The translations under genes and the position numbers were made by a program. This document shows, piece by piece, positions 9,225 to 29,717 of a DNA stretch of 64,000 nucleotides; the stretch's first letter is position 1, and each line of letters opens with the position of its first letter. The stretch is taken from contig NZ_JACVBX010000008.1 of the NCBI RefSeq assembly GCF_014852585.1, positions 186,001-250,000 on the forward strand, given 5' to 3'. The stretch comes from Pseudomonas sp. PDM18. GTDB taxonomy: Bacteria; Pseudomonadota; Gammaproteobacteria; Pseudomonadales; Pseudomonadaceae. The notes beneath the pieces were generated by a model that was not told where the DNA came from, ran no database searches, and was given only the letters and a program-made list of their open reading frames with translations.

Positions 9225-9255
9225 GGCAATCCTTCCTTGAAGCTTGTGTGGAAAC

Positions 9256-10656: not shown

Positions 10657-10758
10657 GATGACCTCACGACTGCCGGCGTCGCTCCTGGCGCCGCTGCATC
10701 GCAGTCCGTTATCGGGCGCAGTGCCGGCCAGCCCTCCACGGGCTCGCCGGGTGCGGGT

Positions 10759-11634: not shown

Positions 11635-12749
11635 GATCTGCCTCCTTGCTTGGCGATCTGTTTGGCGTCGAAGCGCGCCGGGTAGTCCGAGCGCTCGGTC
11701 AGAAAGGAGTCGATCAGGCTGGAAAGCCGCAGTGCAGAGATGTCCCAGGAGTAACGCAGGACGTTCTCCTGCCCCAGACGGCGCAGGTCGGCACGCAGCT
11801 TGTGGTCGAGCAGCACGCGGCGCAGGGCGGCGGCAATGCCAGGCGGATCGAGGGGGTCGAAGTACAGCACCGAGTTGCCCAGCACTTCGGGAATCGACGC
11901 ACTGCTGGCGGCCACCACCGGGCAGCCACAGGCCTGTGCTTCCAGCGGCGGGATGCCGAAGCCTTCGTACAGCGACGGGAAGGCGAAGACGGCAGCATTG
12001 CGGTATTGCTCGATCAGCTGATCGTCATCCAGCCGGCCCAGCCAACGCACCCGGTCACCCTGCCCGCTCTGCTGCAGTTGCGCATCGACGAAGCTGCGGT
12101 TGGCGGCACCTACGATGCGCAATTCCACGTCCAGCTCGCCGAGCAGGCGGAACGCTTCGATCAGCCGCGAGAAGTTCTTGTGCGCCGCCGGTGAGGACAC
12201 CGCCAGGACATAGGGACGTTCGAGCAGCGTCGGTTCCAGGCCGGTGCAGAATTCGGCGGATACCGCATTGGCGATCACATGGATGCCTTTGCGGTCGATG
12301 CCATAGTGCGAGGCGATCTCCTCGCGGGAAAACTCGCTGACCGTGACCTGCGCCAGCGAGCGGCGCAGCATCAGCGGGATCATCACGCGATACAGCGCGC
12401 GGAACTTCCAGGAGAAACTTTCCGGGTGGCGCACGTAGGTGATGTCGTGGTGCGTCACCACCTGCCGCGAATATGCCAGCGGCGCCGTGCTACACAGCGA
12501 GACCAGCAGCGGCCGGCCGTGACGGGCCAGCCACAGCGGCAGGTCGATCTGCTCCCAGAGGTGCCCGCTGCGCTGACCGATCTGTTCGACACGGAGTTGG
12601 CTGGCGATATCCGGGCGGAGGATTTCGCCAGGCGGCACGACGAAGTGGAGGTCGCTGCGCAGCCGCGCCAGCGACAGCGAAATCTGTTCGGCGAAGCGCT
12701 GCACACCACTCACTTGCTGGGTGAGAAAACGCGCGTTGATCACGATCAT
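11631..12749 (-). CDS. GT4-family glycosyltransferase
   Basis: The 372-residue protein has a GT-B fold. The N-terminal half begins [22 protein letters not shown] and the C-terminal half carries the nucleotide-sugar site [20 protein letters not shown] and the GT4 motif [19 protein letters not shown]. It resembles mannosyl- or rhamnosyltransferases of the WbaZ/WbdA type, which add a sugar to the lipid-linked repeat unit on the cytoplasmic face. Translation is coupled to rmlA by a 4-nt overlap. Donor and linkage cannot be deduced. Confidence 0.88.
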
Positions 12750-12769
12750 TTAGGTTCTCCGCGATGGAG

Positions 12770-15385
12770 TCAGCGCAACGACAGTTGCGGGGTCGACGCG
12801 CTGCGCACCAGGGTGGGCGACTCGTCGATGCGGATGCTGGCCTGGCAGTCGCCGCCGCCTGCGGGGCACTGCCAGGGCACCGGCCGGCCCTCGCGGCGGG
12901 CGATACCGTCGACGGCGTCCAGGCGCCAGAGGGTGTCGCTGCTGCCGGGCTTGCTGGTGATGTTCAGGGTCTGCTCGTGGCCCAGGGTCCAGGCCACCAG
13001 GATTTCCTCGCTGGCCTTGGCGAAGCGCAGCAGGTAAACGTTGGGATCCTCGTTCGGTACGCGGCCGACGAAGCGGTAGCGGCCGATGATGTCGGCGATG
13101 CTGGCCATCGCGTGGTACGCCGGCTTGGGCTGGCCGCCGGCGGTGAGCAGACCGAAGTTGTGCTCCATGTCCGTGCGGTCGATGCCGTCGTCCACCAGGT
13201 CGTACCACCAGGCGCCCTTCACGTTCGGCAGGCTGCGCACCAGCACATAGGCCCGGGCCAGGTAGGCGGCCTGGCGCTCGCGGCTGATGCCGCAATCGCC
13301 TTCGTGGGCCGGCCAGCTGAACTCGGTGAAGTACAGCGGGACCGGTTTACCGGCGGCGTGTTCCAGCTTCTGGTTGACGCCCTGGAACCAGTTCAGCCAG
13401 GCCTCGGGAGTAGACATCTCGCCCTCGCAGTACACCGAGGGATGCAGCGAGATACCGTCGGCGACATCCAGTACGCCGCCACTGGCGATGCGCTCGGCGA
13501 AGCCCTGGCGAATGCCCTTGAGGGTGACGGCCCCGGCGAGCACCTTCGCCTGCGGGTCTTCCTCGCGGATCACCTTGGCGGCGGCGCGCACCAGGGTCAG
13601 GTAGTCGTCGCTGAAGTCCTTGTCGGTGGCGTTTTCCGAGTCCCACTCGTTCCACACTTCGTAGTAGGCGACCTGCCCTTTGAAGCTGCGCGCCACGTAG
13701 CGCACGTAACGCAGGTAGCCCTCGCGGGAGGCGTCGTCACGCGGCTTGGCGTTGCCGTAGAACTGGTTCTCGTTGCCCAGGATCAGCAGCGTGTCTATCC
13801 CCAAGCTGCGGGTGCTGCGCAGCTGCGCGCGCCAGGCGGCATCGATGGACAACTTGCCGCGCTCGCGCTCGACACTGGACCAGTAGGCGTCGTCGCGGAA
13901 CGACAGGATGCCGGCCTCGCGGGCCAGGCGATTGATGCCATCGCGATTGCCCGCACGGATGTTCTGGTGGGTACTGGCGCCGACGATGAATTCCGCCGGG
14001 CCGAGGTTTGCCACCGGTGCTTCCTTGGCCATGCTGGACGGCGATTGCAGCAGCCCGCCGATCAACAGCGCACAGGCCAGCAGACTGAGCATGCCGCCCT
14101 GCAGGCGCAGGGTGCGCGGTGCCGGTTGCGGCGCGGTTTCGCCCGGCAGGCGCAGGGCGCGGCCGATGGCCAGGCCGAGGAACAGGCTGGGAATCGGCGA
14201 TTCGAGCACGTCGCTGGTCCAGGCGATGAGCAGGATGCAGTAGGCGATGCCGAGCAGCGCGCGGGCTTCACGGCCGGGTTGGCGCTGCAGGCGCATCAGC
14301 ATCGGCACTGCCAGCAGATAGAGAGCAACACCGGCCACGCCGAACAGGCACCAGAGGTAAAGCAGCGAATTGTCCGCCACCGCCAGTTGCTCGACGCCGA
14401 AGATCGGGAAGGCCGCATAGGCGCTGCCGGTCATGCCCAGCCCGGCGCCGGTGTAGATCCAGCCGTTGTAGTCCATCACCTTGATCAGGTTCGGCCAGGT
14501 ATTGACCAGGCGATCGACCATCGAGCCCATCAGGTTGTCGCCGGTGGCGGTCGCCAGGTACGGGTCGACATGGCCGTACAGGCCGTACAGCGGCAACGCC
14601 AGCGCACCGAGCACCACCAGCAGCGTGGCCAGCAGGAACAGCAGGCGCTGGCGGCTGATGCTCATCACCAGCAGGGCCAGGAAGAAGGCGCCGGCGGAGG
14701 ACTTGTTGGTGGTGAGCACGATACCGACCAGCGCAATCAGGTAGATCAGCCCGCGCACCGGCAGTGCCAGGCGGAAGGAACCCAGGTACAGGCTGAACAC
14801 CGCCAGCATCATCGCCAGGCTCGACGACATCCGCGAGAACCCGGCGATGCGATCCAGGCCATAGGCACTCCAGGAACGGTTGCCACTGATTTCGACGCCG
14901 CCCATGGAGTAGGTGTACCCCTTCCAAGGCACGTTGATGGTGAGGTCCAGGGCGATGCCGGCCAGCGAGGCGATCAGGCAGAAGAAGATGATCCAGCCCA
15001 CGGCCTTGCGGTGCATTTCCAGATACTGGCCGCAGAGCAGGCCGAACAGCAGCGGCGCGTAGATAAAGACCGAGAACAAGCCGCTCTGGAACTCGGCGCC
15101 ATGCAGCCGGCCGAGCAGCAGCGAGGCCGCCGCGAGGATCAGCAGCAGCCAAAGGCCGCGCTGCTGTGGGCGGGTGAACAGCTCCCAGCCCACCGCGACG
15201 ATGCAGGCCACTTTGGGCAGGTAGACGATGGCCGACAGGCCGGCCTGGTCGGTGTAGAAGCGCAGCGCACCGTTGAAGGTCTCCACCAGCAGCAAGGCCA
15301 CCAGCACCCCGAGCGCCAGCAACGAGCGGTCGAAGGTCACACGGCGGTCGACCTCAAAGCGTGGATGCGGGGATTGCAGTTCCAT
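12770..15385 (-). CDS. Wzy/WaaL-like polymerase fused to a GH39-like glycoside hydrolase
   Basis: The 871-residue protein joins two parts. Residues about 20-450 hold some 11-12 hydrophobic segments and the pattern of O-antigen polymerase/ligase proteins (for example IVLTTNKSSAGAFFLALLV and a long periplasmic loop). A last hydrophobic stretch (GMLSLLACALLIGGLL) leads into a soluble region that starts near residue 465 and resembles GH39 hydrolases such as PslG. YYEVWNEWD (acid/base Glu near 579) and LYFTEFSW (nucleophile Glu near 687) are intact, and their spacing is close to that of PslG. The hydrolase should face the periplasm. The start MELQSPHP overlaps the upstream GT4 gene by 32 nt. The architecture suggests polymerisation coupled to trimming of the same polymer. 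Confidence 0.85.
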   Translation of the reverse strand: MELQSPHPRFEVDRRVTFDRSLLALGVLVALLLVETFNGALRFYTDQAGLSAIVYLPKVACIVAVGWELFTRPQQRGLWLLLILAAASLLLGRLHGAEFQSGLFSVFIYAPLLFGLLCGQYLEMHRKAVGWIIFFCLIASLAGIALDLTINVPWKGYTYSMGGVEISGNRSWSAYGLDRIAGFSRMSSSLAMMLAVFSLYLGSFRLALPVRGLIYLIALVGIVLTTNKSSAGAFFLALLVMSISRQRLLFLLATLLVVLGALALPLYGLYGHVDPYLATATGDNLMGSMVDRLVNTWPNLIKVMDYNGWIYTGAGLGMTGSAYAAFPIFGVEQLAVADNSLLYLWCLFGVAGVALYLLAVPMLMRLQRQPGREARALLGIAYCILLIAWTSDVLESPIPSLFLGLAIGRALRLPGETAPQPAPRTLRLQGGMLSLLACALLIGGLLQSPSSMAKEAPVANLGPAEFIVGASTHQNIRAGNRDGINRLAREAGILSFRDDAYWSSVERERGKLSIDAAWRAQLRSTRSLGIDTLLILGNENQFYGNAKPRDDASREGYLRYVRYVARSFKGQVAYYEVWNEWDSENATDKDFSDDYLTLVRAAAKVIREEDPQAKVLAGAVTLKGIRQGFAERIASGGVLDVADGISLHPSVYCEGEMSTPEAWLNWFQGVNQKLEHAAGKPVPLYFTEFSWPAHEGDCGISRERQAAYLARAYVLVRSLPNVKGAWWYDLVDDGIDRTDMEHNFGLLTAGGQPKPAYHAMASIADIIGRYRFVGRVPNEDPNVYLLRFAKASEEILVAWTLGHEQTLNITSKPGSSDTLWRLDAVDGIARREGRPVPWQCPAGGGDCQASIRIDESPTLVRSASTPQLSLR

Positions 15386-16586
15386 GCTGGACTCCGCGGG
15401 TAAGCAGGGTGTGGCGCAGGATGGCTTCGTATTCGTCGAGCATCCGTTCCAGGCTGAGCATCGGTGCCACGACCTCACGGGAACGCGAGGCCAGGCGCTG
15501 GCGCAGCACCGGGTCTTGCACCAGGCGCTCGATGGCTTCGCCCAGCGAGTCGCTCCGGTCGGGCGAGCAGAGCAGGCCGTTGATTTCGTCCAGGACGATT
15601 TCCGTCAGGCCGCCCATGCGCGAGGCGATCACCGGCAGGTGGTGGGCGCAGGCTTCCAGCGCCACCAGGCCGAAGGATTCGGGGGAAAGGCTGGGCACCA
15701 CGGCAACGTCGATCTCGGAAAAGAACTCGGCCGCCTTGCGGTAGCCGACGAAGTGCACGCGCTGGGGATCGGCGAGAGACTTCAGCTGGTTTACGTAGGT
15801 GCTGTCGCCCCGTCCGGCGATCAGCAGCGAAGCATCCTCGCCGCGCGCCTGGAACTGCTCGATCAGCCACTCCACGCCTTTGTTCGGGGTCAGCGCGCCG
15901 ATGAAGCCGAAGCGCAGCGGGCGATGCACGCTTACCGACGGCGCGACGGGCACCTCCGCCATTGGCGAGCCGTTGTAGACCACGTGGGTCTGGCTGGCGG
16001 CGAAATACCCGGCATCGAGCAGCGCATTGAGCTGGTAGCGACTGACACCGACCACCGCATCGACGTCGCTGGAAGCCGATGCGTGGGAGCGACGCAGCAG
16101 CGCGCAGGGCGCACATTGCTGCTCGCAGTGGCGGCCCTTGTTGAAGCGCACGCCGCGCGGGCAGGTCAGGTACTGGTCGTGGAGAATCTGCACAATGGGC
16201 AGGTCGGCGTCGCGGATCGCATCCCAGGCCGCGATCGACCAGCCCGACAGGTTGTGGCAGACCACCAGGTCCGGCTCGACCTCTGCCAGCACTTTCGCCA
16301 GCAGTGCACGCATGCTGCGGTTGTAGCGATCCAGTGCGTGCCAGGCGAGGCGTTTCAGCGCGCCGTAGTTCTGTTCGTCGAAGGGCCAGTAGAGATTGCG
16401 CAGACCGGCGCGCAGCACCGGCACCCCGTTGACCGTCTCGCGTTGCAGGCCCGCTTCCGGACCGGTGCAGAGCACCTGCACGTCATGGCCACGCCCGCGC
16501 AGGCCCTCGGCCATGTGCTGCAGCATGACCTCCGTCCCGCCACCGATGTGTGGGGCGTAGAGGGTGTTGAGCAGCAGCAGTCTCAT
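15354..16586 (-). CDS. GT4-family glycosyltransferase
   Basis: The 410-residue GT-B protein begins MRLLLLNTLYAPHIGGGTEVMLQHMAEGLRGRGH, the classic N-terminal acceptor-side segment. Its C-terminal half has RFGFIGALTPNKGVEWLIEQF and PSLSPESFGLVALEACAHHLPVIAS (E-x7-E motif). A Cys cluster CPRGVRFNKGRHCEQQCAPC lies near residue 160, as seen in a subset of GT4 enzymes, and could bind a metal. The ATG overlaps the stop codon of the upstream GT2 gene (ATGA), so translation is coupled. It is expected to act on the lipid-linked oligosaccharide in the cytoplasm. Confidence 0.88.
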   Translation of the reverse strand: MRLLLLNTLYAPHIGGGTEVMLQHMAEGLRGRGHDVQVLCTGPEAGLQRETVNGVPVLRAGLRNLYWPFDEQNYGALKRLAWHALDRYNRSMRALLAKVLAEVEPDLVVCHNLSGWSIAAWDAIRDADLPIVQILHDQYLTCPRGVRFNKGRHCEQQCAPCALLRRSHASASSDVDAVVGVSRYQLNALLDAGYFAASQTHVVYNGSPMAEVPVAPSVSVHRPLRFGFIGALTPNKGVEWLIEQFQARGEDASLLIAGRGDSTYVNQLKSLADPQRVHFVGYRKAAEFFSEIDVAVVPSLSPESFGLVALEACAHHLPVIASRMGGLTEIVLDEINGLLCSPDRSDSLGEAIERLVQDPVLRQRLASRSREVVAPMLSLERMLDEYEAILRHTLLTRGVQHGTAIPASTL

Positions 16587-17581
16587 AGCGGGTAAGCCCG
16601 GTTCATACCCAGCGCGCCGGCCTCGCCATCGCGGATCGCCTGCAGCAGCAGGGCCAGTCGGCTCTCGCGCTGGTGGCGGCGGGCGAAGAAGTGCAGCAGG
16701 CGGATGAACACCCAGCGGTTGAAGCGGTACATCAGCGGCGAGGTGACCCATAGGTTCTTGTCGAACCAGGCCTGGTTGCGCGCGGCGTAGTAGGCGCGCA
16801 GGTCGGAGCTGCCGAGCAAGTAGGTCTCGTAGATGTTGGAGGTGCGCGCCTTGATGTTCCAGGAGTTCTCCAGGTCGTCCAGGCCGGCCTCGGGCACCAG
16901 GTAGAGGTGCCCGCCCAGGGCGCCGATGCGGAAGGTGTATTCGGTGTCGTCGGCGTAGAGCACCAGGTCACGGCGCGGCAGGCCGATGCGGCGGAACAGG
17001 TCGGCATGCCCGAGCAGGCCACCGTAGTAGGCGAACGGCAGCTCCAGCAGCGGCTGCGCCGGGCGCGGCTTCGGCTTGCCCCAGGGGGTGCGGCGCCAGA
17101 GCTTGTAGGGCAGCTGGCGGACATGGAAGCCGAAGTAGCTGGAGCGCGGTGGCGCGATGAAGCGGGTCGGCACGCCGGAGGCGACGTCGGCCTGGTGGGT
17201 CGGCCGGAAACCCAGTACCGCGGTGTTGTCGACACCGTGGCGCAGGGCGCAGTCGATCAGGCGTTGTTTGAGCAGGGGGAAGGAACCCGGCGTCGGCGCG
17301 TTGTCGTCATCCATCAGCCAGATGAAATCGCAGCCGGTCTTCAGCGCGGCATCAATGCCTACGGCGTAGCCATTGGCCGAGCCGGTGTTGCTGTCCAGCT
17401 CGATGACCTGCACGCGATTGGGCCAGAGCATGAACAGCTGGTCCAACTCCGCCACCGAGGCATTGCTGACGACGATGGCGCGGGTGATGTCCTTCTCGCG
17501 GAAGGCGCGGGCCAGCAGTTCCTGCAGGTATTCCAGGCGATCGCCATAAGTCAGCGTCACCAGCACGGTCGATCCATTCAT
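16583..17581 (-). CDS. GT2-family glycosyltransferase (rhamnosyl/galactofuranosyl-transferase type)
   Basis: The 332-residue GT-A protein begins MNGSTVLVTLTYGDRLEYLQELL with AGGAGG 8 nt upstream. SNTGSANGYAVGIDAAL and FIWLMDDDNAPTPGSF supply the nucleotide-sugar site and the metal-binding DDD motif. This pattern resembles GlfT-like galactofuranosyl- and rhamnosyltransferases. The later segment YADDTEYTFRIGALGGHLYLVP is also typical of that subgroup. It is translationally coupled to the following GT4 gene. Donor sugar is unknown. Confidence 0.85.
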   Translation of the reverse strand: MNGSTVLVTLTYGDRLEYLQELLARAFREKDITRAIVVSNASVAELDQLFMLWPNRVQVIELDSNTGSANGYAVGIDAALKTGCDFIWLMDDDNAPTPGSFPLLKQRLIDCALRHGVDNTAVLGFRPTHQADVASGVPTRFIAPPRSSYFGFHVRQLPYKLWRRTPWGKPKPRPAQPLLELPFAYYGGLLGHADLFRRIGLPRRDLVLYADDTEYTFRIGALGGHLYLVPEAGLDDLENSWNIKARTSNIYETYLLGSSDLRAYYAARNQAWFDKNLWVTSPLMYRFNRWVFIRLLHFFARRHQRESRLALLLQAIRDGEAGALGMNRAYPL

Positions 17582-17624
17582 CTCGCCACTCCTCCTTGTA
17601 CCTGGCCTTGTCTGGGGGGGCGCC

Positions 17625-18152
17625 TCAGGCGCGCCAGCCGTCATTGCCGCTCAGCGCCGAGAGCTGGCTGAGCGGGACCCGGATGCGTTGTTCGCGTTGC
17701 AATAGGTTGAGCAGGATCAGGGCGCGTTCGGTGCCGTCGTCGCAGAGGAAGATGGCCTCCACTTCGCATTCGCCAGAACACTTCAGGCGCACGACCTGAC
17801 CTTCGTGGAAGCCACTGGAGGGCCGCTCGGGCATCGCCGCCAGGCGCTCGCGGATGCCGTCCACCAGGTCGTCGGCCACCGCCAGCGGCTGCGCGCCGAA
17901 GCTGACGATGCGCGCAACGCCGCGAGTGGAGCGGATCGGGAACCAGTTGTCGTGCTGCTGATCGAGGCGGATGAACAGATAGCCGGGGAACAGCGGCTGC
18001 GGCCGGCTGCCCTGCTTCACCACCGGGCGGTAGCAGGAGAAGCCCTGGCGACCGAGGTTCTCCTCGGCGCGCAGTTCCTGGTGCGGTTTGGTCTGGATCA
18101 GGTACCAGCGATACTGCGCGGCTTGCAGGCCAACGCTGACAGCGGAATTCAT
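17625..18152 (-). CDS. rfaH: RfaH/NusG-family transcription antitermination factor
   Basis: The 175-residue protein has an N-terminal NGN domain (YRWYLIQTKPHQELRAEENLGRQGFSCYRPVV, then PLFPGYLFIRLD) and a C-terminal KOW-type domain (FHEGQVVRLKCSGECEVEAIFL). Length and spacing fit NusG paralogues such as RfaH, UpxY and LoaP, which load on RNA polymerase at an ops site and suppress termination in long operons. The start codon overlaps the wbqC stop (ATGA). It is the seventh gene of the transcript it would control, and candidate ops elements lie in the operon leader at 26738 and 26825. Action on this operon is an inference. Confidence 0.88.
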   Translation of the reverse strand: MNSAVSVGLQAAQYRWYLIQTKPHQELRAEENLGRQGFSCYRPVVKQGSRPQPLFPGYLFIRLDQQHDNWFPIRSTRGVARIVSFGAQPLAVADDLVDGIRERLAAMPERPSSGFHEGQVVRLKCSGECEVEAIFLCDDGTERALILLNLLQREQRIRVPLSQLSALSGNDGWRA

Positions 18153-18898
18153 GATTCGTACTCCCCAAGAAGATCGGTCGAGGGAGCGGGTCGCTCCAGG
18201 GTGTAGCGGCCTAGCAACCGCTGCATCTCGTCCGGTGGGTTGAACATCAGCACGTCGATGATCGACAGGCTGGGGACGAAATCCGGGCTGAACTGGGGGT
18301 AGCTCAGCTCGTCCATGCGCAGGAACTGCAGCTCCAGGCCATGGGCCTGGAACACGTCGGGCGAGTACAGGTGGCGGCCGCCCTCGGGGTTCAGGTAGAC
18401 GTCGCCGCCGCTCTGCTTCACGGCCTCGATCAGACGCTGGTCGCGGCCGATGTCCTCGGCCAGCTCCAGCTCCGAGGCCCGCACCATCGGCGTGTCGATG
18501 CCGATGTAGTGGCAGATGCGGCGGATCGAGTGCTCGGCGAAGTGCGACAGGTTGCGCTCGGGGTGCTCGAGGATTTCCTCCAGCAGCGGCATCACCTGCT
18601 CGTAGCACGGCGCGCGGTGGTAGGCATGGCGGATGGTGTGCAGCAGCCGCCGGTTGCTCAGCTGCATCTGCTCGCTCAGCCTGCGTTCGTTGATCGCCTG
18701 GGTCTGCGAGCCCTGCTCCAGGGGAAAGCTGAACTGCCAGATCTTCCCGCCGACCAGCAGGCGATTGCGGTTGATCCACCCACGCCGGGTGTACTGCAGA
18801 CTGTCGCCGAGAATGAACAGGCCGCTCGCGGCGATCAGCTGGAAGTACCCCAGGTAGGGGAACAAGTACGGCTGCATGAGGCTGACGATATGGACCAT
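18149..18898 (-). CDS. WbqC-family protein
   Basis: The 249-residue protein opens MVHIVSLMQPYLFPYLGYFQLIAAS and continues with QYTRRGWINRNRLLV and YLNPEGGRHLY, the conserved blocks of the WbqC family (PF08889). Members are found in O-antigen and antibiotic clusters that handle amino sugars or acylated sugars; the exact reaction is not established, and an acyl- or aminoacyl-transfer role has been suggested for some. It lies between wzc and rfaH. Its presence together with the DegT aminotransferase supports an amino-sugar-bearing repeat unit. Confidence 0.85.
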   Translation of the reverse strand: MVHIVSLMQPYLFPYLGYFQLIAASGLFILGDSLQYTRRGWINRNRLLVGGKIWQFSFPLEQGSQTQAINERRLSEQMQLSNRRLLHTIRHAYHRAPCYEQVMPLLEEILEHPERNLSHFAEHSIRRICHYIGIDTPMVRASELELAEDIGRDQRLIEAVKQSGGDVYLNPEGGRHLYSPDVFQAHGLELQFLRMDELSYPQFSPDFVPSLSIIDVLMFNPPDEMQRLLGRYTLERPAPSTDLLGEYES

Positions 18899-18926
18899 GG
18901 CTGCATCCTTTCCCTAGATTCCCTTT

Positions 18927-21140
18927 TCAGTCCTTGGCGTCGTAGCGGTAGGCGTAGGCGCCGTAGTCGTATGCCGCCGTCGAAGCCTTGCGTTTCACAC
19001 CGTTGAGGATGGCGCCCTGCAGGTGGATGCCGCTCTGCGCCAGGCGCCGCCGCGCGGTGTCGATCTCGCTCGCCGGGCTCTGGCCGAAGCGCGTCACCAG
19101 CAGGCAGATGCCGCACAGCCGACCGACCAGGGCCGCGTCGGTCACCGCCAGCACCGGCGGGGTGTCGACTATCACCAGGTCGTACATCGACGAGGCATCG
19201 CGCAGCAGCTGGGCGAAGTTGTCGTGCATCAGCAGCTCGGACGGGTTCGGCGCGGCGAAGCCGCAGGAGATGAAGTCCAGCTCCGGCACCTCGGTAGGCA
19301 GGATCACTTCGCTCAGCGGACGGTGCGAACTCAGCGCGTCGGACAGGCCGTGACGCGGCGTCAGGCCGAATACCCGGTGCAGGTAACCCTTGCGCATGTC
19401 GGCGTCGATCAGCAGGGTGCGCAGGCCCGATTGCGCAACGATGGCCGCGAGGTTGCTGGAGACGAACGACTTGCCGGCGCCCGGCGCCGGGCTGGTGAGC
19501 ATCACCACGTTGTTGCGCGCTTCGAGCAGGGCGAAGTGCAGGTTGGTGCGCAGGCTGCGGATCGCCTCGTTGGCCAGGTCGCCGGGGGCGGACGCGGCGA
19601 GCAGCTTGGGCGTATGGCCGAGGACATCGCTCTTGCGTTCCTTCTCCAGGCGCTCCTGCTGCCGCGAGTAGGGAACCGCGGCGAGCACGGAGAGGCCCAG
19701 CTGTTCGATCGCTTCGGGATTCTCCACGCCACGGTAGAAGGCCTGGCGCAGGAACAGGATGGCGAGGGCGACGCAGAAGCCGAGCAGGGTGGCGAGCAGC
19801 ACGATGACCTTGCGCATGGGCTTGGCCGGCTGCTCGACGTTGGCCTGGGCGGTGTCGATCACTCGCACGTTGCCGATGGTGCCGGCGCGAATGATGTCCT
19901 GCTCCTGGGCCTTGTTCAGCAGGCTGGTGTAGGTCTGCCGGGTGACCTGCATGTCACGGGACAGGCGCAGCAATTCCTGCTGGGTGGCCGGCAGGGTCTG
20001 GATGCGTTTCTGCAGTTGCGCCTTGCGGTCCTGCAGGCTGCTGACCTGCTTGAGCAGGGCCTGGTAGGTCGGGTGAGTCGGGGTGTAGAGGCGATCGTAC
20101 TCGTCGCGCTTGAGCTTGAGCTCGGAGAGCTGGTTGTCGATACCCACTACCTGGTCCAGGACGCCGCGGGTCTCGACGCTGATGTCGGCAGACTTGGCGG
20201 TAGTCTGGTAGGCGTTATACGCAGCTTCGGCCTTTTCCAGATCCATGCGCACCACCGGCAACTGCGAGCGCAGGAACTGCAGGCGCTGGGAGGCTTCGGC
20301 GGAGCTGCGTTCGACGTTCTGCAGTACGTAGAGGTGGCTGATCTTGTCGAGGATGCGGTCAGCCTGCTGCGGGCTCGGATCTTCCAGGGTCATGTAGATG
20401 ATCCCCGAGTCCTTGCCGGCCTCGACCACCTTGAGCAGCTTCTGGTAGTTCAGGGTGGTGGTCAGCAGGCGGTTCTTCGCCACGATGAATTCGGTGCCGG
20501 GCCGCGCCACCAGTTCGTCCACCTCGATGCTGAAGCCCTTTTCCAGCACCGGCTTCTTCAGCTCGCCGCGCAGGATCAGTTGATCGTCGGCATTGAGCAG
20601 GTGGTAGGCGTCGCCGCCATCGGCCACCAAGGTCAGCGGCTCGCCGAGGTACTCCTCCGGCACATCGAGGGAGAACACCTTGATCTGCTCGCCACCCCAG
20701 CCATAGGAACCCATGCCCAACCAGGGTGCGGACAGGGCCTCACCGGCCTCGGGCTTGTAGCGCCGCGCCAGGTAGTCACCGATCAGCGGCAGGTGCTTGG
20801 GCTTGGCGATGATATCCAGCTTCAGCAGCTCGACCGCCTTGCCGAGTACCGCGCGGGATTTCAGCAGCTCGATCTCGGTGGCGGCGATGGACACGGAGTC
20901 CGGGCGGTTGATCACCTCCGGCGTGCCGTTCAGACCGTTCTTCTTCTGCTCGATCTGGATCATCGCGCCGGAGACGTAGATCGGCGTGGCGATCACCGCG
21001 TAGAAGAGCCCGAGTACGGCGAACAGGCCGGTGACAGCCAGGATCATTTTCTTGTGATCGAACAGCAGGCGCAGCAGGCCTGCAACGTCGATGCGGGTGT
21101 CCTGGAGCGTTTCCAGGGACGAGCGGGGCATGACACTCAT
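18927..21140 (-). CDS. wzc: Polysaccharide co-polymerase / bacterial tyrosine kinase, Wzc-like
   Basis: The 737-residue inner-membrane protein has an N-terminal Wzz segment with a first transmembrane helix (MILAVTGLFAVLGLFYAV). A periplasmic coiled-coil region spans about residues 90-430, and a second helix (VIVLLATLLGFCVALAILFL) precedes the cytoplasmic BY-kinase domain. Walker A (PAPGAGKS, near residue 555), Walker A-prime (LLIDADMRKG) and Walker B (LVIVDTPP) are intact. The C-terminus has a tyrosine cluster (AYDYGAYAYRYDAKD), the usual autophosphorylation tail. Wzc controls chain length and export with Wza. No separate Wzb phosphatase gene is seen in the cluster. Confidence 0.94.
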   Translation of the reverse strand: MSVMPRSSLETLQDTRIDVAGLLRLLFDHKKMILAVTGLFAVLGLFYAVIATPIYVSGAMIQIEQKKNGLNGTPEVINRPDSVSIAATEIELLKSRAVLGKAVELLKLDIIAKPKHLPLIGDYLARRYKPEAGEALSAPWLGMGSYGWGGEQIKVFSLDVPEEYLGEPLTLVADGGDAYHLLNADDQLILRGELKKPVLEKGFSIEVDELVARPGTEFIVAKNRLLTTTLNYQKLLKVVEAGKDSGIIYMTLEDPSPQQADRILDKISHLYVLQNVERSSAEASQRLQFLRSQLPVVRMDLEKAEAAYNAYQTTAKSADISVETRGVLDQVVGIDNQLSELKLKRDEYDRLYTPTHPTYQALLKQVSSLQDRKAQLQKRIQTLPATQQELLRLSRDMQVTRQTYTSLLNKAQEQDIIRAGTIGNVRVIDTAQANVEQPAKPMRKVIVLLATLLGFCVALAILFLRQAFYRGVENPEAIEQLGLSVLAAVPYSRQQERLEKERKSDVLGHTPKLLAASAPGDLANEAIRSLRTNLHFALLEARNNVVMLTSPAPGAGKSFVSSNLAAIVAQSGLRTLLIDADMRKGYLHRVFGLTPRHGLSDALSSHRPLSEVILPTEVPELDFISCGFAAPNPSELLMHDNFAQLLRDASSMYDLVIVDTPPVLAVTDAALVGRLCGICLLVTRFGQSPASEIDTARRRLAQSGIHLQGAILNGVKRKASTAAYDYGAYAYRYDAKD

Positions 21141-21171
21141 GGACTTCCATCCTCCATTGAGGTGGCGCGGC

Positions 21172-22101
21172 TCAGCGCGCCGAAATCGGGTTCAGCCGCT
21201 TGAGCAGGTTGGCGCCGTGGTTGCCGATCAGCAGCAGGAAGGCCTGCACCTTGCGCATGGGCGAGACGGCGGCCATGGACATCCGGCAGACCTGCATCAG
21301 GAAGTACTCGTTGAGCTCCTGGTTGCCCAGGCGCTGGTAATAGCGCGCCAGGCAGTAGTAGGTGTGCAGGGTCATCTGCTGCTGCACGCGATCAGCCTGC
21401 ATGGAGAAGATCCCGCCCTGATGCACGCGGTAAGCCGCCGGGCGGATTTCCTCGATGAAACGGCCCTTGCCATAGGCGCCCAGCAGCGACCACCAGCACA
21501 GGTCGACCATGCGCGTGGTGCGCAGCTCCTCCGGCATCTCGGTGAGGACATTGCGGAAGCAGGTGGTGAGGGTGGAGATCGGCCGCGCCTGTTGCAGCTC
21601 CAGGCGGCTGGCGTCGCGGCGGTACTTGCCGGTGAGCTGCCGGGGCTTGATCACGCCGTCCTCGTTGTAGGTGTAGGCGTCGTGGTAGGTGATCACGTAG
21701 TCCGGGTTCTGCTCCAGGAAGTCGACCTGGATCTGCAGCTTGCGCGGGTCGGTCCAGAAGTCGTCACCTTCGCAGTAGGCGATGTAGCGGCCACGGCATT
21801 TCCTGAACACCGGCAAACCGTGGGAGACGCCCTTGGAGTACTGGTTTTCCTTGTGGAAGATCGGCTTGATGATGTGCGGGTAGCGCGCGGCGTAATCGGC
21901 GATCAGCTCGCTGGTGCCGTCGTTGGAGGCGTCGTCGTTGACCAGCACTTCAAAGCGGAAGTCGGTGACCTGCTCCAGGAAGCTGTCCAGCGTGCGGCCG
22001 ATGTAGTTCACCTGGTTGTAGGCCAGGCAGACGATGCTCAAAAGAGGCTTGGGGTCTTCCGGCCAGTTGGAGAGGATCTGCAGCTCGGAGCGGATATCCA
22101 T
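21172..22101 (-). CDS. GT2-family glycosyltransferase
   Basis: The 309-residue GT-A protein begins MDIRSELQILSNWPEDPKPLLSIVCLAYNQVNYIGRTLDSFLEQ. It contains VLVNDDASNDGTSELI and YIAYCEGDDFWTDPRKL, the two metal and nucleotide-binding motifs of the family. It starts 2 nt after the wzx stop codon. It should add a sugar to the lipid-linked repeat unit. A longer upstream start would overlap wzx heavily and lacks resemblance to the family, so this ATG was chosen. Confidence 0.88.
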   Translation of the reverse strand: MDIRSELQILSNWPEDPKPLLSIVCLAYNQVNYIGRTLDSFLEQVTDFRFEVLVNDDASNDGTSELIADYAARYPHIIKPIFHKENQYSKGVSHGLPVFRKCRGRYIAYCEGDDFWTDPRKLQIQVDFLEQNPDYVITYHDAYTYNEDGVIKPRQLTGKYRRDASRLELQQARPISTLTTCFRNVLTEMPEELRTTRMVDLCWWSLLGAYGKGRFIEEIRPAAYRVHQGGIFSMQADRVQQQMTLHTYYCLARYYQRLGNQELNEYFLMQVCRMSMAAVSPMRKVQAFLLLIGNHGANLLKRLNPISAR

Positions 22102-22103
22102 GT

Positions 22104-23624
22104 CTAGACACTCGGCTTGTGGGACGGTTTGAACAGGCGCAGCAAAGCCGGGGCAGAGCCCGCGCCAACGAGGAACAGGGTGATCAGGCCGCACACGGCC
22201 AGCGCCACCAGCAGCCACAGCCGCTCGCCGGAGCGGGCCAGCAGCGCGTAGAAGGGCTCGCTGAGCAGCAGGCCGGCGGCGCTGAGCGCGGCGATCTGCA
22301 GGGTGTCGCGCAGCCACGGGCCATGCAGGCCGGGAGCGAAGGCGTGGTGCACGATCGCTGGCCAGATCAGGAACGACACCAGGCGCAGGCCGAACCAGCA
22401 CAGCGCCACGCCGAGCACGCCATAGAGGTAGGCGCTGGCGATCACCAGCGGCACGGTCACCAGGGTGGAGATGACCGTGTACCAGACGTGCATGCGCAGC
22501 AGGCCGTGGGCGTATTGCAGGTAGAACTGGAAGCTGGCCACCGCCAGCAGGCCTGAGCCGAGTACGTACCAGGCCAGGATCGGCCGGCACCAACTGGCGG
22601 CCACGGCATCGCCGCTCCAGGCCAGAACCAGGTCATGACCATGAGCGGCGATCACCGCGACCATCGGGAACAGCAGCACACAGACGAAGCGGTTCGCCTT
22701 CAGATAGAGCTGCTGCATGTCTTCGTGGCGTTGTTCGGCGACCAGCACGGTCATGCGCGGCAGCAGTGACTGCGCCAGCGGATTGACCAGCGTGAGGACG
22801 CCGCCGGAAATCAGCGCCACCAGGGAGAAGTAGCCGTACTGCTGCAATGGCAGCAGGTTCGACAGCAAGACCTTGTCCAGCTGAGTGAGCACGATCCACA
22901 GGCAGGACGTGAAGGACATGCCCAGTGCAAAGGGCAGCACCGGGCGTACCGTGTCCCAGCAGAAGCGGGTCAGCAGACGCACGTCCATCCACAGGTAAGC
23001 CTTGCCGCCCAGCAGTAGCGCCTCGATCAGCGATACCGCCACTTGGAACTGGAAGAACACCAGCGGATCCTGGCTGACCTGCGCCACCAGCAGTAGGCCG
23101 CCGAAATAGCGCAGGGTGGTGATGACGACGTTCACCGCGTTGATGAAACCGTGCAGCTCCTGCCCCTGCAGCGCGCTGCGGTACAGGGTGGCGTACAGCC
23201 GCAAGGCCACCAGCAGACCCATGAGGCTGATGCACTGCGCGACCAGCTCGGGCGAGAGTTGCTGTACGTTGAGCCACTGCCCGGCCACCCAGTTGCTGCC
23301 GCCCCAGACCGCCAGGCTGCTGAGGACAGTCAACGGCAGCAGGATCAGCTCGAAGGAACGCAGCAGGCGGGCATGGGCCTGTTCTTCGCCACTCACGCCG
23401 CGGCCGTGGGCAACCTGGCGCACCAGCGCCGGCGACAGGCCCATGTCGAGCAACAGCAGCCAGCTCTGCAGCACCGCGAAAAAGCCGATCAGCCCGTAGG
23501 CCTCGGCCCCGAGGTGGCCGAGGTAGAACGGCTGGATCAGGATGCCGATGACGATGGCGTACGCCTGCCCCGCGTAATTGAGCAGGGTATTGCGGACCAT
23601 CGACAGCGAGCGTGCGGTGCGCAT
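22104..23624 (-). CDS. wzx: Oligosaccharide flippase, Wzx-like
   Basis: The 506-residue protein is almost entirely hydrophobic with about 12-14 predicted membrane helices. Its first segment, NTLLNYAGQAYAIVIGILIQPFYLGHLGAEAYGLIGFF, is typical of the MOP-superfamily polysaccharide flippases (RfbX/Wzx). It would move the completed lipid-linked repeat unit to the periplasmic face for the Wzy-like polymerase. It lies directly after the DegT gene (10-nt gap) and before a glycosyltransferase gene. Confidence 0.9.
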   Translation of the reverse strand: MRTARSLSMVRNTLLNYAGQAYAIVIGILIQPFYLGHLGAEAYGLIGFFAVLQSWLLLLDMGLSPALVRQVAHGRGVSGEEQAHARLLRSFELILLPLTVLSSLAVWGGSNWVAGQWLNVQQLSPELVAQCISLMGLLVALRLYATLYRSALQGQELHGFINAVNVVITTLRYFGGLLLVAQVSQDPLVFFQFQVAVSLIEALLLGGKAYLWMDVRLLTRFCWDTVRPVLPFALGMSFTSCLWIVLTQLDKVLLSNLLPLQQYGYFSLVALISGGVLTLVNPLAQSLLPRMTVLVAEQRHEDMQQLYLKANRFVCVLLFPMVAVIAAHGHDLVLAWSGDAVAASWCRPILAWYVLGSGLLAVASFQFYLQYAHGLLRMHVWYTVISTLVTVPLVIASAYLYGVLGVALCWFGLRLVSFLIWPAIVHHAFAPGLHGPWLRDTLQIAALSAAGLLLSEPFYALLARSGERLWLLVALAVCGLITLFLVGAGSAPALLRLFKPSHKPSV

Positions 23625-23634
23625 GATCGTCCCC

Positions 23635-24729
23635 TTACACCGCGACGGCGACGCGGCCGCTTTCCAGCAGCAGCACTTCGATCACCGCGCGCTGGACCTC
23701 CTGCGGCAGGCCCGGGTACAGCGGCAGGCAGAGGATGCGCTGGCTCAGCTCGCGGGACAGCACTTGCGGCACCTGCGGGGCGAGGTAGTAGAGGGTATCC
23801 AGCGACGGGTAGAAGTAGCGCCGCGGGTTGACCCCGATCTCGTTCAGCGCGGTGCGCACGCGCAGCACCTGGGCCTCGTCGCGCAGGCCGATGGGGTAGT
23901 AACTGTTGTTCAGCCGCGCGTAGCTCTCGCTGGCCTGCAGGTCGTAGTAACCGCTGAGCGCGGCGGTATAGCGGGCGGCGATCTCCTCGCGCTGGGCGAG
24001 GATGCTGTCGATATCGTCGAGCACGCACAGGCCCATGGCGGCGGAGAACTCGTTGAGCTTGGCGTTGATCCCCAGGCCGACGATCTGGTCGACGCCGGCG
24101 ATGCCGAAGTTGCACATCAGGCGGATCTGCTTCGCCAGCTCGTCATCGGAGGTGACGATGGCGCCGCCCTCGATGGTGTGGAACAGCTTGGTGGCATGAA
24201 AGCTCAGGGTGGTGGCATCACCCCAAGCCAGCACCGACCGGTCGCGGTAGCGCGAACCGAAGGCATGGGCGCCGTCGTAGATCACTTTCAACTGGTTGCG
24301 CTGGGCCACCGCCTGAATCTCCTCCACCGCACAGGGATTACCGAACACGTGGGTGGCGACGATGGCGGTGGTATCCGGCGCAAGGCTGGCTTCGATGCGC
24401 GCAGGGTCGAGGTTCCAGGTCCGCGGGTCGATGTCGGCGAAGCGCGGGCGGATGCTCTCCCACTGCAGCGTGCTGCTGGTGGCAACGAAGCTGAAGGGGG
24501 TGGTCACGGCACTGCCGGTCACGCCCAGGGCCCGGTAGGCCACTTGCAGGGCAATGGTGCCGTTGTTGGTCAGAATCACATGACGAACGCCGAAGTAGTC
24601 CTGCAGGCGCTCTTCCAGTTCCGTGACGAAGGGGCCGTGGTTGGTGATCCAGCCGGAGGCATAGATCTGGTCCACGTAGGCCTTGAACTTGTCCGGGTTG
24701 CCCAGGTAGGTCTTGGTCACATTGATCAC
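23635..24729 (-). CDS. DegT/DnrJ/EryC1 family sugar aminotransferase
   Basis: The 364-residue PLP enzyme starts MINVTKTYLGNPDKFKAYVDQIYASGWITNHGPFVTELEERL. It has LTNNGTIALQVAYRALG in the phosphate-binding region and SFHATKLFHTIEGG, where the Lys near residue 180 is the expected PLP lysine. This version of the motif is the one seen in VioA/FdtB/QdtB-type transaminases acting on dTDP-ketosugars. RmlA in the same operon would supply dTDP-glucose, but no 4,6-dehydratase is present here. It probably makes an amino sugar for the repeat unit. The exact sugar is unknown. Confidence 0.87.
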   Translation of the reverse strand: MINVTKTYLGNPDKFKAYVDQIYASGWITNHGPFVTELEERLQDYFGVRHVILTNNGTIALQVAYRALGVTGSAVTTPFSFVATSSTLQWESIRPRFADIDPRTWNLDPARIEASLAPDTTAIVATHVFGNPCAVEEIQAVAQRNQLKVIYDGAHAFGSRYRDRSVLAWGDATTLSFHATKLFHTIEGGAIVTSDDELAKQIRLMCNFGIAGVDQIVGLGINAKLNEFSAAMGLCVLDDIDSILAQREEIAARYTAALSGYYDLQASESYARLNNSYYPIGLRDEAQVLRVRTALNEIGVNPRRYFYPSLDTLYYLAPQVPQVLSRELSQRILCLPLYPGLPQEVQRAVIEVLLLESGRVAVAV

Positions 24730-24786
24730 GGTCGCATCCCTCTCTTGGATGGAAAGTCCGTTAGCTGTCGAGCCGGCGCGCGCCGC

Positions 24787-26196
24787 TCAACCCAGCGCCG
24801 ACAGCGCGAAGGGCGCGTCGTCGATGTCGTTATCCACGGGATGCGCCGCTCGAGACGCGCGGCTGGCCAGGTGTTCCTGCAGGGCCTCGATGACCCGGCC
24901 GCTGGCGTCGTTGTGGAACTGCCAGACGCCGTAGATACGGCTGTCAAAGGAACGCTCGCTACCCAGCATCGGGTTGGCCGCAAGACCGGAGCCGAGGCCG
25001 AAGCTGTAGAGACCAGGAATCGGCCGGCCGGTGTGATCGCGCAGGCAGCCGGCGGCGTCGGAGTCCAGCCCGCCCTTGCTCTCGCGCACCTGCAGCGGCT
25101 CGCCGTTGGCGCGGCGCAGGGCCGGCAGGCACGGCTGGTAGCCAATGGCCTGGACGAACACACCGTCGTCGCTGCAGCACTGCTCCAGACGCTCGCGCAC
25201 GGCGGGTGAGCGATCTTCCAGGCACAGCAGTTCGACCTTCACCCGGGTGCCGCTGACCACGCCGTTGGAGAGCACGTCGGTGCCGACCTGGTGGGCACGG
25301 TAGCGCAGACCGCCGGAGCGGTTGACCCTCCCGGATACCGGGCAGACATCCATGCCCTCGTCCACCCCATAGCCGGCCGCACGAGCCTCCTCGACGCTCT
25401 CGAAGAACAGGCGGATCGGCGCACGGTGCAGCAAGGTGATCTGCTCGAGGCCCAGGCAGTCCAGGGCGCAGGCGAGGTTGTCGAGGATCGAGAAGGCGCT
25501 GTGGGAACCGCCGACCACGGTGAAGCGGGTGCCCGGGGTCACCCGGTCGCCGAACAGTTCCACCAGCTCGGCGGCGTTCAGGCTCAGCAACGCGTCGGAG
25601 GAGTAGACCGTGGGGCCATCGTGGGACAGGTGCAGGTCCTGCTCGGCCAGGCTCCAGTTCAAGTACTCGCGGTTCTGCCGGCCGCCCAGGTTCATCACCA
25701 GCGCGCCTGCGTCAATCTGCGCGGTGTGGGAGCCGCTACGCAGCGCCAGCTGGAAGCTGCCGTCGTCCAGTGCGGTGATTTTTTCGATACGCGTACCCAG
25801 CGCCACTTCGACACCCAGGTGCTCGGTGACGTAGCGCATGAACAGCGTCGAGGCGTGCGCCAGCAGCTCGCCCACTTGCGTGAGCATCGGCGCGCCATGC
25901 GGGTCGTTCTGCAGGGCACGGAACGCGCGGGAATGCGCCAACGGCGCAAAAATGGGCAACAACGCCGGATCACGCAGGCAGTCGAGGAACACGTCGCCCA
26001 CCGAGTTGGCGGTGATGTGGTAATCCCCCAACCGGCCGCGGCCGACCGCCAGCGCAGCGTCCACGACCAGCAGGCCATCGCGGGCGAGGCTCGCCAGCGC
26101 ACCGGTCTTGTAGGCGTTGAACAGGAAGCCCATGCCTGCCGGGCCGGCACCGCCGACCACACAGGCATAGTTGGAACGAAGCGATTGCTCGGCCAT
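24787..26196 (-). CDS. FAD/NAD(P)-binding oxidoreductase of unknown substrate
   Basis: The 469-residue protein opens the operon. GGAGPAGMG (residues 15-23) is an FAD-binding Rossmann motif, and FTVVGGSHSAFSILDNL (about residue 227) is a second dinucleotide site. The C-terminal GLYSFGLGSGLAANPMLG resembles the closing FAD-contact segment of lysine/ornithine N-monooxygenase-like and related flavoproteins. It is unusual as the first gene of a polysaccharide cluster. With the DegT and WbqC genes it may prepare a modified amino sugar or its substituent, for example by N-oxidation or ketosugar oxidation. This function is inferred from context only. The membrane is not involved; no signal peptide is visible. 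Confidence 0.7.
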   Translation of the reverse strand: MAEQSLRSNYACVVGGAGPAGMGFLFNAYKTGALASLARDGLLVVDAALAVGRGRLGDYHITANSVGDVFLDCLRDPALLPIFAPLAHSRAFRALQNDPHGAPMLTQVGELLAHASTLFMRYVTEHLGVEVALGTRIEKITALDDGSFQLALRSGSHTAQIDAGALVMNLGGRQNREYLNWSLAEQDLHLSHDGPTVYSSDALLSLNAAELVELFGDRVTPGTRFTVVGGSHSAFSILDNLACALDCLGLEQITLLHRAPIRLFFESVEEARAAGYGVDEGMDVCPVSGRVNRSGGLRYRAHQVGTDVLSNGVVSGTRVKVELLCLEDRSPAVRERLEQCCSDDGVFVQAIGYQPCLPALRRANGEPLQVRESKGGLDSDAAGCLRDHTGRPIPGLYSFGLGSGLAANPMLGSERSFDSRIYGVWQFHNDASGRVIEALQEHLASRASRAAHPVDNDIDDAPFALSALG

Positions 26197-26375
26197 CAGC
26201 CTTGACTCCCAGCGCGGCGGGGCGCGCGGCTCTCGTGAGGCCGGCGCTGTCGGCCGGCAGGGTGGCAGCGCTCGCGCCGGAATTCCGTCACTCGCGGCGC
26301 AGCCGCCGTCGCGCGGACCTTCTTCGGGAAGGTCGCGGGAGTCAGTTCGGAATGGATGGCGAACGCCTGCAGGAG

Positions 26376-26419
26376 AACTTCGGCAGATGGCCGAAGTTGC
26401 TGTTTCAGGAATGAAACAG
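26376..26419 (-). other. Tandem RNA hairpins in the operon leader
   Basis: A 9-bp stem AACTTCGGC/GCCGAAGTT with a 5-nt loop (26376-26398) and an 8-bp stem CTGTTTCA/TGAAACAG with a 4-nt loop (26400-26419) lie side by side about 180 nt upstream of the first gene. Neither is followed by a T run on the minus strand, so they are not ordinary terminators. They may be pause or protein-binding structures. Confidence 0.6.
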
Positions 26420-26737
26420 AGTGCGTCTGGCGCGGACCTGATTCAGCGGAAAGTTCATGGTTGTTACACCCGGACTTACAACTTGAGAGAGGGGCATAAC
26501 AAAATCTCGAACTAACAAAATTAGCTCGACTAACCTTCTTATTAACGCCACGGGGATTGGCGTCAAACTTCCGCAGTTTCAGCAGCGAAACACTTCCCGC
26601 CTGGGAAGCGTCGTTCTTTTTGCTTGAAAGGGCGGACTTGGAAGTTCCGTCACTTTGTATTCTTCCAGCGGCCATCGTCACTCACTCCAGTCCAGGAGGT
26701 GCTCTACGCCGGGCCAACTTTAAAATTCGAAGACAAG

Positions 26738-26747
26738 GCTACCGCCC
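26738..26747 (-). promoter_or_regulatory. ops-like element, downstream copy
   Basis: On the minus strand the sequence reads GGGCGGTAGCCTTG, which includes GGCGGTAGC, the core of the ops element bound by RfaH (E. coli GGCGGTAGCGTG). It is 87 bp downstream of a second copy. The motif is short and the same 10-mer also occurs by chance elsewhere (18025-18034, plus strand), so position and duplication carry the argument. Confidence 0.6.
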
Positions 26748-26824
26748 GAGTTCGAATGACCCGATTCGATTAACGACAATCAACTGTTCGTCCCTGGAGT
26801 GGCCGTTACTTTTCGCTGGGCAAA

Positions 26825-26834
26825 GCTACCGCCC
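26825..26834 (-). promoter_or_regulatory. ops-like element, upstream copy
   Basis: On the minus strand this copy reads GGGCGGTAGCTTTG, differing by one base from the copy at 26738 over 14 nt. It would be transcribed about 195 nt after the predicted start site. RfaH family proteins recognise this core in the non-template strand of the paused polymerase. Confidence 0.6.
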
Positions 26835-27035
26835 ATCGGCCAAGTTCCGAAAATCTGGAAAAACAAAAGCAAAAATCTATCGCGCTTCCGCAGCGAGGTA
26901 CTGGCGAAAGTTGTCAGGCAGCGATAGGAAAATGACAGGAAGAAGAGGTGGCAGAATCTTCCATGACCTTACTGCTCGTGCGACTGCTCCCTGAGGTGTC
27001 TCATCCGGACACCACACGATATTGCTATGTGGATA

Positions 27036-27065
27036 GTAATAGTGGGGGGGAGGAAGGCATGTCAA
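27036..27065 (-). promoter_or_regulatory. Candidate sigma-70 promoter of the exopolysaccharide operon
   Basis: On the minus strand a perfect -35 hexamer TTGACA (27060-27065) is followed after 18 nt by TATTAC (27036-27041) as a plausible -10. Transcription would start near 27029. The spacer is a pyrimidine run with seven C residues. It is the best promoter-like sequence seen upstream of the cluster. Confidence 0.5.
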
Positions 27066-27066
27066 T

Positions 27067-27083
27067 GTAGGAAGCCTTCCTAC
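27067..27083. promoter_or_regulatory. Palindromic operator next to the operon -35 box
   Basis: GTAGGAAG, one central base, then CTTCCTAC form a perfect 17-nt palindrome ending 1 bp from the TTGACA hexamer. The position, just upstream of -35, is typical of an activator site or of a repressor that blocks polymerase. The binding protein is unknown. Confidence 0.5.
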
Positions 27084-29538: not shown

Positions 29539-29717
29539 AGGCGATACTGTACCTCGGAAGGGGTGTAGGACTACGCCCTGCTGGGCGTGCTGTACCGGGA
29601 AAAGACAGCCGCATTATCACCAAGCAGGTCCGGATTACCATCCGGTCTTTTAGATACGAATGTGGCCACGTGGCCATCATTTATACTGCACAGCCAATAA
29701 ATCCAACCCACTACCGC

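Follow-up and report, generated by a model that had tools for sequence, protein, structure and literature searches.

Twin ops-like sites in the leader of a Pseudomonas exopolysaccharide operon that carries its own rfaH

The DNA analyzed here (the window) is a 64,000-nucleotide stretch of the 6.4-Mb genome of Pseudomonas sp. PDM18 (positions 186,001-250,000 of contig C64 in genome G000). It contains a compact exopolysaccharide operon of 14 co-oriented genes that runs for ~18 kb on the minus strand, from 26196 to 8103, and the seventh gene encodes an RfaH/NusG-family protein, RfaH-A. The operon leader carries two sites resembling the ops (operon polarity suppressor) element of Escherichia coli: ops1, GGGCGGTAGCTTTG (26821-26834, minus strand), and ops2, GGGCGGTAGCCTTG (26734-26747, minus strand), which lies 87 bp downstream of ops1. 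A preliminary description of this DNA had placed two ops-like sites 87 bp apart on this strand of the leader, and both are present, the positions it gave (26825 and 26738) being the low ends of the 9-mers. Its reading of the RfaH/NusG-family gene as seventh of 14 agrees with the gene order and with a score above the cut-off of the NCBIfam RfaH model TIGR01955.

Read from the leader, and all on the minus strand, gene 1 encodes a 469-aa protein with a weak Pyr_redox_2 match (24787..26196), which we call flavin adenine dinucleotide (FAD)-like. Domain matches assign the following genes to a DegT/DnrJ aminotransferase (gene 2, 23635..24729), a Wzx-like flippase (gene 3, 22104..23624; NCBIfam WZX_like only below its cut-off), a family 2 glycosyltransferase (GT2; gene 4, 21172..22101), a Wzc-type tyrosine kinase (gene 5, 18927..21140), and the WbqC family (gene 6, 18149..18898). 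After rfaH-A come genes 8-14 (8103..17644), in the order GT2, GT1, Wzy-like/GH39, GT1, rmlA, wcaJ-type transferase, and wza. The gaps between open reading frames (ORFs) range from -169 to +102 bp, the lowest value being obtained with the first possible start codons. One of these ORFs, of 902 aa (12770-15478, minus strand), fuses a membrane part, Wzy-like by eye, to a GH39-type domain. A probable intrinsic terminator, consisting of a repeat and an A/T run (7876-7911, minus strand), was read from the sequence 3' of wza and is absent from the pattern-scan list; a terminator-like site that the scan does list, the second of two, lies at 8888-8868, within wza.

Both leader sites have the GCGGTAGC core on the coding strand of a long-operon leader. 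The full E. coli ops string is GGCGGTAGCGTG. In that element, polymerase pauses at U11, C3 pairs with G8, and T6 is flipped out (PMC5995543). Positions 10-13 read TTTG in ops1 and CTTG in ops2; T11 is kept and the TG comes one base later than in E. coli ops, which gives the form GCGGTAGC-NN-TG. The designation of the two sites as copies of the ops core in the preliminary description therefore stands for the core GCGGTAGC and not for the exact E. coli ops, as the TG is one base late in both. Its caution that so short a motif also recurs by chance is borne out: the 9-mer GGCGGTAGC occurs eight times in the window against 0.74 expected, and six of these copies lie outside the twin sites. The 13-mer GGCGGTAGCNTTG occurs four times in the 6.4-Mb genome, two of them being the leader sites, and the 14-mer GGGCGGTAGCYTTG is confined in this genome to the leader. 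Between 26150 and 27300, the JUMPstart RNA (Rfam RF01707) gave no match up to E 5, and the one Rfam match in the leader, to Pyrobac-1, is below threshold. Elsewhere in the window (42350-42363, minus strand) there is a canonical ops 14-mer, GGGGCGGTAGCGTG, with no polysaccharide genes after it among the ORFs listed there; the same string also stands 15.4-15.7 kb upstream of the twin sites in two related genomes, G008 and G010.

RfaH-A (gene 7, 17625..18152, minus strand; 175 aa) matches PF02357 and scores 150.7 bits against TIGR01955, the cut-off of which is 144.5. It stays below the cut-off of the narrower PRK09014 model (101 of 124), and by the NCBIfam models it is neither UpxY (NF033644; 33.2 bits, cut-off 100) nor LoaP (NF033641; 24.8 bits, cut-off 125). 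In E. coli RfaH, residues of the K10/R16/R23/Q24/T72-V75 type contact ops, or their loss weakens recruitment (PMC5995543). The window RfaH-A keeps K10, R16, R23, Q24, T72, R73, G74, and V75 among the ops-reading positions and has substitutions at H20 (to N), T68 (to P), N70 (to R), and A71 (to S). R16, R23, Q24, T72, R73, G74, and V75 are present in all 65 RfaHs of the upstream type, and K10 in 64 of them; the NusG of the source genome lacks K10, R16, R23, Q24, and R73-V75. In a tree of 92 rows, the 65 upstream-type RfaHs make up one side of a branch with support of 100/90; on the same tree the downstream types need three changes, and the placement of the long NusG, Marinobacter, and E. coli branches is unsure. 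An AlphaFold2 model of the window RfaH, computed from the single sequence with no alignment, reached a mean pLDDT (predicted local distance difference test) of 32.4 and was not used.

Within the genus, 16 of 25 genomes have exactly two copies each of GGGCGGTAGCYTTG, all of them in this leader (32 in total), and the other nine have none; the reversed pattern, used as a control, has four matches in the 25 genomes. These 16 are exactly the genomes in which gene 1 and an rfaH-A of 81-100% identity are found, and in 10 of them RfaH-A is the sole RfaH match at E 1e-10. ops1 is invariant across the 16 leaders and ops2 varies only at position 10, which is C or T. The same leader type is present in Pseudomonas nitroreducens TX1 and 381H, P. 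pseudonitroreducens, and P. nicosulfuronedens.

RfaH-A matches are found in 204 of 398 genomes of the family. From the matches listed we took 60 loci outside the genus, the best 47 in order (omitting G248, at a contig end) and 13 lower ones, several of which overlap the pattern scan described below. In these 60 loci the 11-mer GGCGGTAGCNT has 65 copies on the strand of rfaH and a single one on the opposite strand. The operon core DegT-wzx-GT2-wzc-rfaH is present in 49 of them, with wbqC before rfaH in 40 of these; ten of the other 11 have a single canonical ops just 3' of rfaH, and one (G376) has none. A homologue of the FAD-like gene 1 (42-49% identity) is found in 8 of the 60. Two GCGGTAGC cores, 51-120 bp apart and 7.5-8.2 kb upstream of rfaH, are found in 44 of the 49 leaders with the operon core, and one core only in the remaining five; shuffled leader segments gave two cores in 0 of 1960 cases. 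Two exact copies of GGCGGTAGCNT are present in 17 of the 49, the second sites gained at the 8-mer level being mostly GTGCGGTAGC forms. Among the 44 pairs, 35 first sites have the form GCGGTAGC-NN-TG, eight the E. coli form GCGGTAGC-N-TG, and one neither; among the second sites the corresponding numbers are 20, 21, and three. Positions 2-9 of the cores are fixed by the search definition; compared as unaligned sequence, the flanks differ between loci. The check suggested in the preliminary description, whether both sites are conserved in related leaders, thus has a positive outcome, both in the genus (16 of 16) and, at the level of two cores, elsewhere in the family.

The same layout was recovered by a scan of genome contigs that was blind to rfaH and asked only for two copies of GGCGGTAGCNT 71-101 bp apart, which returned at least 118 stretches; the twin context was read in 80 + 13 of them. 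For an RfaH search we chose, from the 80, 27 genomes with leader-like twins (Pseudomonas, Marinobacter, and one gammaproteobacterial locus), and all 27 have an RfaH match. Among 28 measured loci (26 chosen ones plus L141 and L159; L057, with rfaH on a different contig, is outside this count), 27 have rfaH on the same strand as the twin and 6,478-8,681 bp downstream of site 1. In the remaining one, L088 from Marinobacter santoriniensis, twin ops 80 bp apart come ~3 kb after rfaH, and tandem sites therefore also exist outside the in-operon layout. L088 is also the only one of the 80 loci with an RfaH match inside the stretch itself (up to 8 kb each), and together with L121 it makes up the twin stretches from outside Pseudomonas whose genomes were searched for RfaH.

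Besides NusG and RfaH-A, the source genome carries a second paralogue, RfaH-B, encoded after wzc on another contig (G000 contig C44, L008:17160-18352, minus strand); 100 bp beyond the end of the RfaH-B gene lies GGCGGTAGCGTGC. RfaH-B is also found in 6 of the 16 RfaH-A genomes. In all 13 RfaH-B loci of the genus, GGCGGTAGCGT lies 78-584 bp past the matched rfaH end, followed by G in 12; the nearest ops has the short form in 12 of the 13, and in one locus it is followed by a second, more distant site. The upstream-type and the downstream-type RfaHs alike retain most ops-reading residues. The RfaH-B loci resemble the present one in that an RfaH-type gene sits in a polysaccharide locus with ops on the same strand, but the ops identified in them lies downstream of their own rfaH, in contrast to the twin sites of RfaH-A, which are upstream, in the leader.

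The rest of the leader, on the minus strand throughout, also has recognizable structure. A putative promoter, TTGACA-18-TATTAC (27036..27065), with a spacer of 17 in some relatives, is found in 15 of 16 leaders (the contig of G007 ends there) and is absent from the pattern-scan list. It is followed by a 5' leader hairpin, GGTGTC...GACACC (26995..27013), the stem of which is invariant in 15 of 15, and, upstream of ops1, by a terminator-like hairpin with a T-rich run (26871..26925). In the latter, 96.1% of alignment cells are paired and 4 of 12 pairs show changes on both sides, which supports the stem; the 15 alignment rows fall into two clades and hence contain few independent covariation events. 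This hairpin is possibly a separate attenuator. ops1 and ops2 are each predicted to lie in a nested RNA stem-loop (26801..26841 and 26710..26763, respectively), whose pairs are nearly invariant and hence neither support nor refute a role for the RNA. A CTCC-N6-GGAG hairpin (26685..26698) would pair the Shine-Dalgarno sequence of the leader ORF; its four pairs are kept in 15 of 15 with none varying, and the piece folds no better than shuffles (z 0.79). Across five single leader pieces, z ranges from -1.73 to 0.79, none being far better than shuffles. A long-range helix (alignment A2, columns 62-91 x 275-296) is 97.6% paired, with changes on both sides in 3 of 17 pairs, and is matched by 122 of 500 shuffles, which makes it only suggestive. 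Directly upstream of the leader lies a PAS-GGDEF gene (27251-28219, minus strand), with a PAS-GGDEF-EAL gene nearby (29670-31991, plus strand), and a link of the operon to cyclic di-GMP through these two genes is possible. An ORF at 28357-29538 (minus strand) matches both a fatty acid desaturase (11-214) and the DDE_Tnp_ISL3 transposase (286-387).

Between ops2 and gene 1, the leader holds an ORF of 159 codons (26196-26675, minus strand) that matches no Pfam family, starts 71 bp after the ops2 core, and ends in a TGATG overlap with gene 1. An ORF of 150-159 codons from the aligned ATG to this overlap is present in 11 of 16 genomes; of the other five, three have 151 codons and end 12 nt short of the gene 1 ATG, one continues into gene 1 without a stop, and one is cut off at codon 36. 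Across the 16 genomes there are 5 in-frame stops versus 78 and 114 in the other two frames, which is hard to square with a plain non-coding leader. Gap runs, counted per row and not per event, are of 3, 12, or 18 bases in 59 of 76 cases within the ORF (12 others are of 11 bases and five of 1); upstream of it, 161 of 197 are of 1 or 2 bases. Differences at the three codon positions are equally frequent in the leader ORF (0.268/0.282/0.272; 11 genomes with the intact form), whereas gene 1 gives 0.030/0.022/0.225 over its first 480 nt (10 genomes), which led us to reject an ordinary gene. We read the leader ORF as a spacer that appears to be kept translatable in most of the genus, its frame preserved with no sign of constraint on the peptide. 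In 12 of 15 other loci inspected, ops2 is soon followed by the first gene, dioxygenase-like by eye, with no such spacer; the other three have a FAD-like gene and, at a comparable position, shorter ORFs of 54, 61, and 117 codons.

Taken together, these data lead us to consider it highly probable that the RfaH-A encoded in the operon loads at the twin ops sites of the leader, antiterminates the 18-kb transcript, and thereby feeds back positively on its own production. Polymerase leaving the promoter would reach ops1 and then ops2, where RfaH-A would read the GCGGTAGC core in the exposed non-template strand and bind RNA polymerase. Once bound, it would shut out NusG, and hence Rho, and help to couple ribosomes. 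The antiterminated polymerase would complete the 18-kb transcript including rfaH, and because rfaH is gene 7, complete reading would make more RfaH, a self-sustaining and possibly switch-like loop. Most simply, two sites would offer two chances to load scarce RfaH.

Several observations weigh against this antitermination model or limit what supports it. The G10-T11-G12 pause end of E. coli ops is not found at the window sites, both of which lack G10 and G12. The leader segments contain GCGGTAGC 93 times on the coding strand versus 20 times on the opposite one, and the latter copies mean that the 8-mer alone is not diagnostic. A family-wide scan for two GCGGTAGC cores 87-117 bp apart has hits in 190 of 398 genomes, many of the places listed being plainly other than this leader, and so neither helps nor hurts the case for the twin sites. 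The 26871-26925 hairpin lies upstream of ops1, and RfaH loaded at ops could not help polymerase there. Simple scans and the leaders of relatives revealed no conserved terminator downstream of ops2; the weak terminator-like site that the scan lists there (26507-26529, minus strand), inside the leader ORF, is not present in all relatives. Conservation extends to other blocks of the 5' leader (11 genomes differ by ~9% over the 200 nt preceding ops1 and by 27% over the leader ORF), so conservation in the genus does not by itself single out the ops sites; their exclusivity to this leader and their recurrence in the wider family do. Finally, in the protein, all 16 RfaH-A of the genus have N in place of H20, a residue used by E. 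coli RfaH; among the autoinhibition contacts F130 and R138 are kept, and E48 and I93 are replaced by Q and V, respectively, in each of the 16. Autoinhibition of E. coli RfaH needs E48, I93, and F130 (PMC7593976). With these three replacements, dependence on ops may be looser, and with E48Q/I93V the RfaH-A of the genus may be more readily active.

The best-surviving alternative, which we regard as a tentative possibility well short of an even chance, assigns different tasks to the two sites: ops1 would load RfaH, and ops2 would act as an RfaH-dependent pause before the first start codon, at which a ribosome is caught and the leader ORF is translated first. RfaH-bound polymerase is known to pause at an engineered downstream ops (PMC7819879). 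The presence of two cores in 44 of 49 leaders, the 71 bp between ops2 and a conserved ATG, the Shine-Dalgarno sequence within the conserved CTCC/GGAG pairing, and a reading frame kept without peptide constraint are all in line with this alternative, but the 15 other loci differ in how far the first likely start lies from the last core, and five of the 49 leaders have one core only. A fuller version, to which we give slightly less credence still, is a two-stroke leader in which RfaH-A would load at ops1 and brake polymerase at ops2 pending ribosome initiation on a leader ORF kept only for translation; this would constitute a self-amplifying exopolysaccharide on-switch, and the register-shifted ops may insulate it from the second RfaH.

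The coexistence of RfaH-A and RfaH-B in the source genome, together with the difference in ops forms (35 of the 44 first sites are long, whereas the second sites are evenly split, 20 long and 21 short), would also fit a leader in which the two sites serve different RfaHs, the in-operon RfaH-A and a trans-acting RfaH-B, with cross-talk between polysaccharide loci. We consider this unlikely, as the 10 genomes of 16 with RfaH-A as the only match keep both sites, and the two sites of the window have the same form. Slightly less likely again, RfaH-A could act strictly in cis while being translated and not need ops, the GCGGTAGC sites being kept for pausing or RNA structure. The E48A change frees E. 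coli RfaH from ops, which gives the Q at this position in the 16 genus proteins some bearing here, and in-operon, non-autoinhibited RfaHs have been proposed to be recruited in cis (PMC13015549). However, RfaH-A keeps most ops-reading residues, whereas a few of these residues are missing from the monomorphic proteins in that preprint (PMC13015549), and loading in cis at gene 7 could presumably neither help genes 1-6 nor need leader sites 8 kb upstream. That the sites are matches that arose by chance or from coding sequence and persisted through shared descent, as the eight 9-mers in the window, the 8-mer pairs common in the family, and the other conserved leader blocks might suggest, is hardly credible given the exclusivity of the 14-mer pair to the leader, the 65:1 strand bias of the 11-mer, and the two cores at the same place with different flanks in 44 of 49 loci outside the genus.

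The preferred arrangement, with RfaH-A loading at the twin sites of its own leader, shares with the E. coli RfaH/ops (JUMPstart) system a NusG paralogue of the RfaH type, a long envelope-polysaccharide operon with a GCGGTAGC core in its leader, and most ops-reading residues; it differs in having rfaH inside the target operon, two sites, the GCGGTAGC-NN-TG form, and no JUMPstart family match. As with UpxY of Bacteroides, TaA of Myxococcus, and LoaP of Bacillus, the antiterminator is encoded within or beside the long operon that it serves (PMC7593976, PMC7819879). In contrast to UpxY and LoaP, the two families whose models were tested, RfaH-A falls far below both NCBIfam cut-offs; and ops-type DNA sites are evident here, whereas recruitment of in-operon factors is called unknown in PMC7593976. 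Monomorphic RfaH homologues of the Idiomarina group, described in a 2026 preprint (PMC13015549), are likewise encoded in or adjoining a long envelope operon. They are active in all ops contexts tested there, without a few ops-binding residues, and non-autoinhibited RfaHs near or in their operons are argued to act in cis (PMC13015549); unlike them, the RfaH-A clade keeps most ops-binding residues and has twin sites in the leader.

In-operon RfaH-like factors are already known from TaA, UpxY, and the Shewanella cluster CL7 (PMC7593976), so of the twin-site, in-operon arrangement presented as notable in the preliminary description, the twin leader sites hold as a novelty and the in-operon factor, in principle, does not. 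RfaH loss and duplication in Pseudomonadaceae are treated in the same paper (PMC7593976), the sections concerned containing no mention of ops in this family. A literature search, with most subscription journals outside its scope, found neither tandem ops nor any Pseudomonadaceae ops. What is new is the tandem sites, the shift of the pause end by one base that most first sites show, and the leader ORF, which in most genomes of the genus preserves its frame but not its peptide.

A duplicated leader ops ~8 kb upstream of rfaH, recurring across Pseudomonadaceae, offers a testable answer to the question of how in-operon RfaH/NusG factors are recruited. It also provides a natural system for studying the reason for keeping a pair of sites, the possible bistability of antitermination, and the question of whether paralogous RfaHs sharing a cell read different ops forms.

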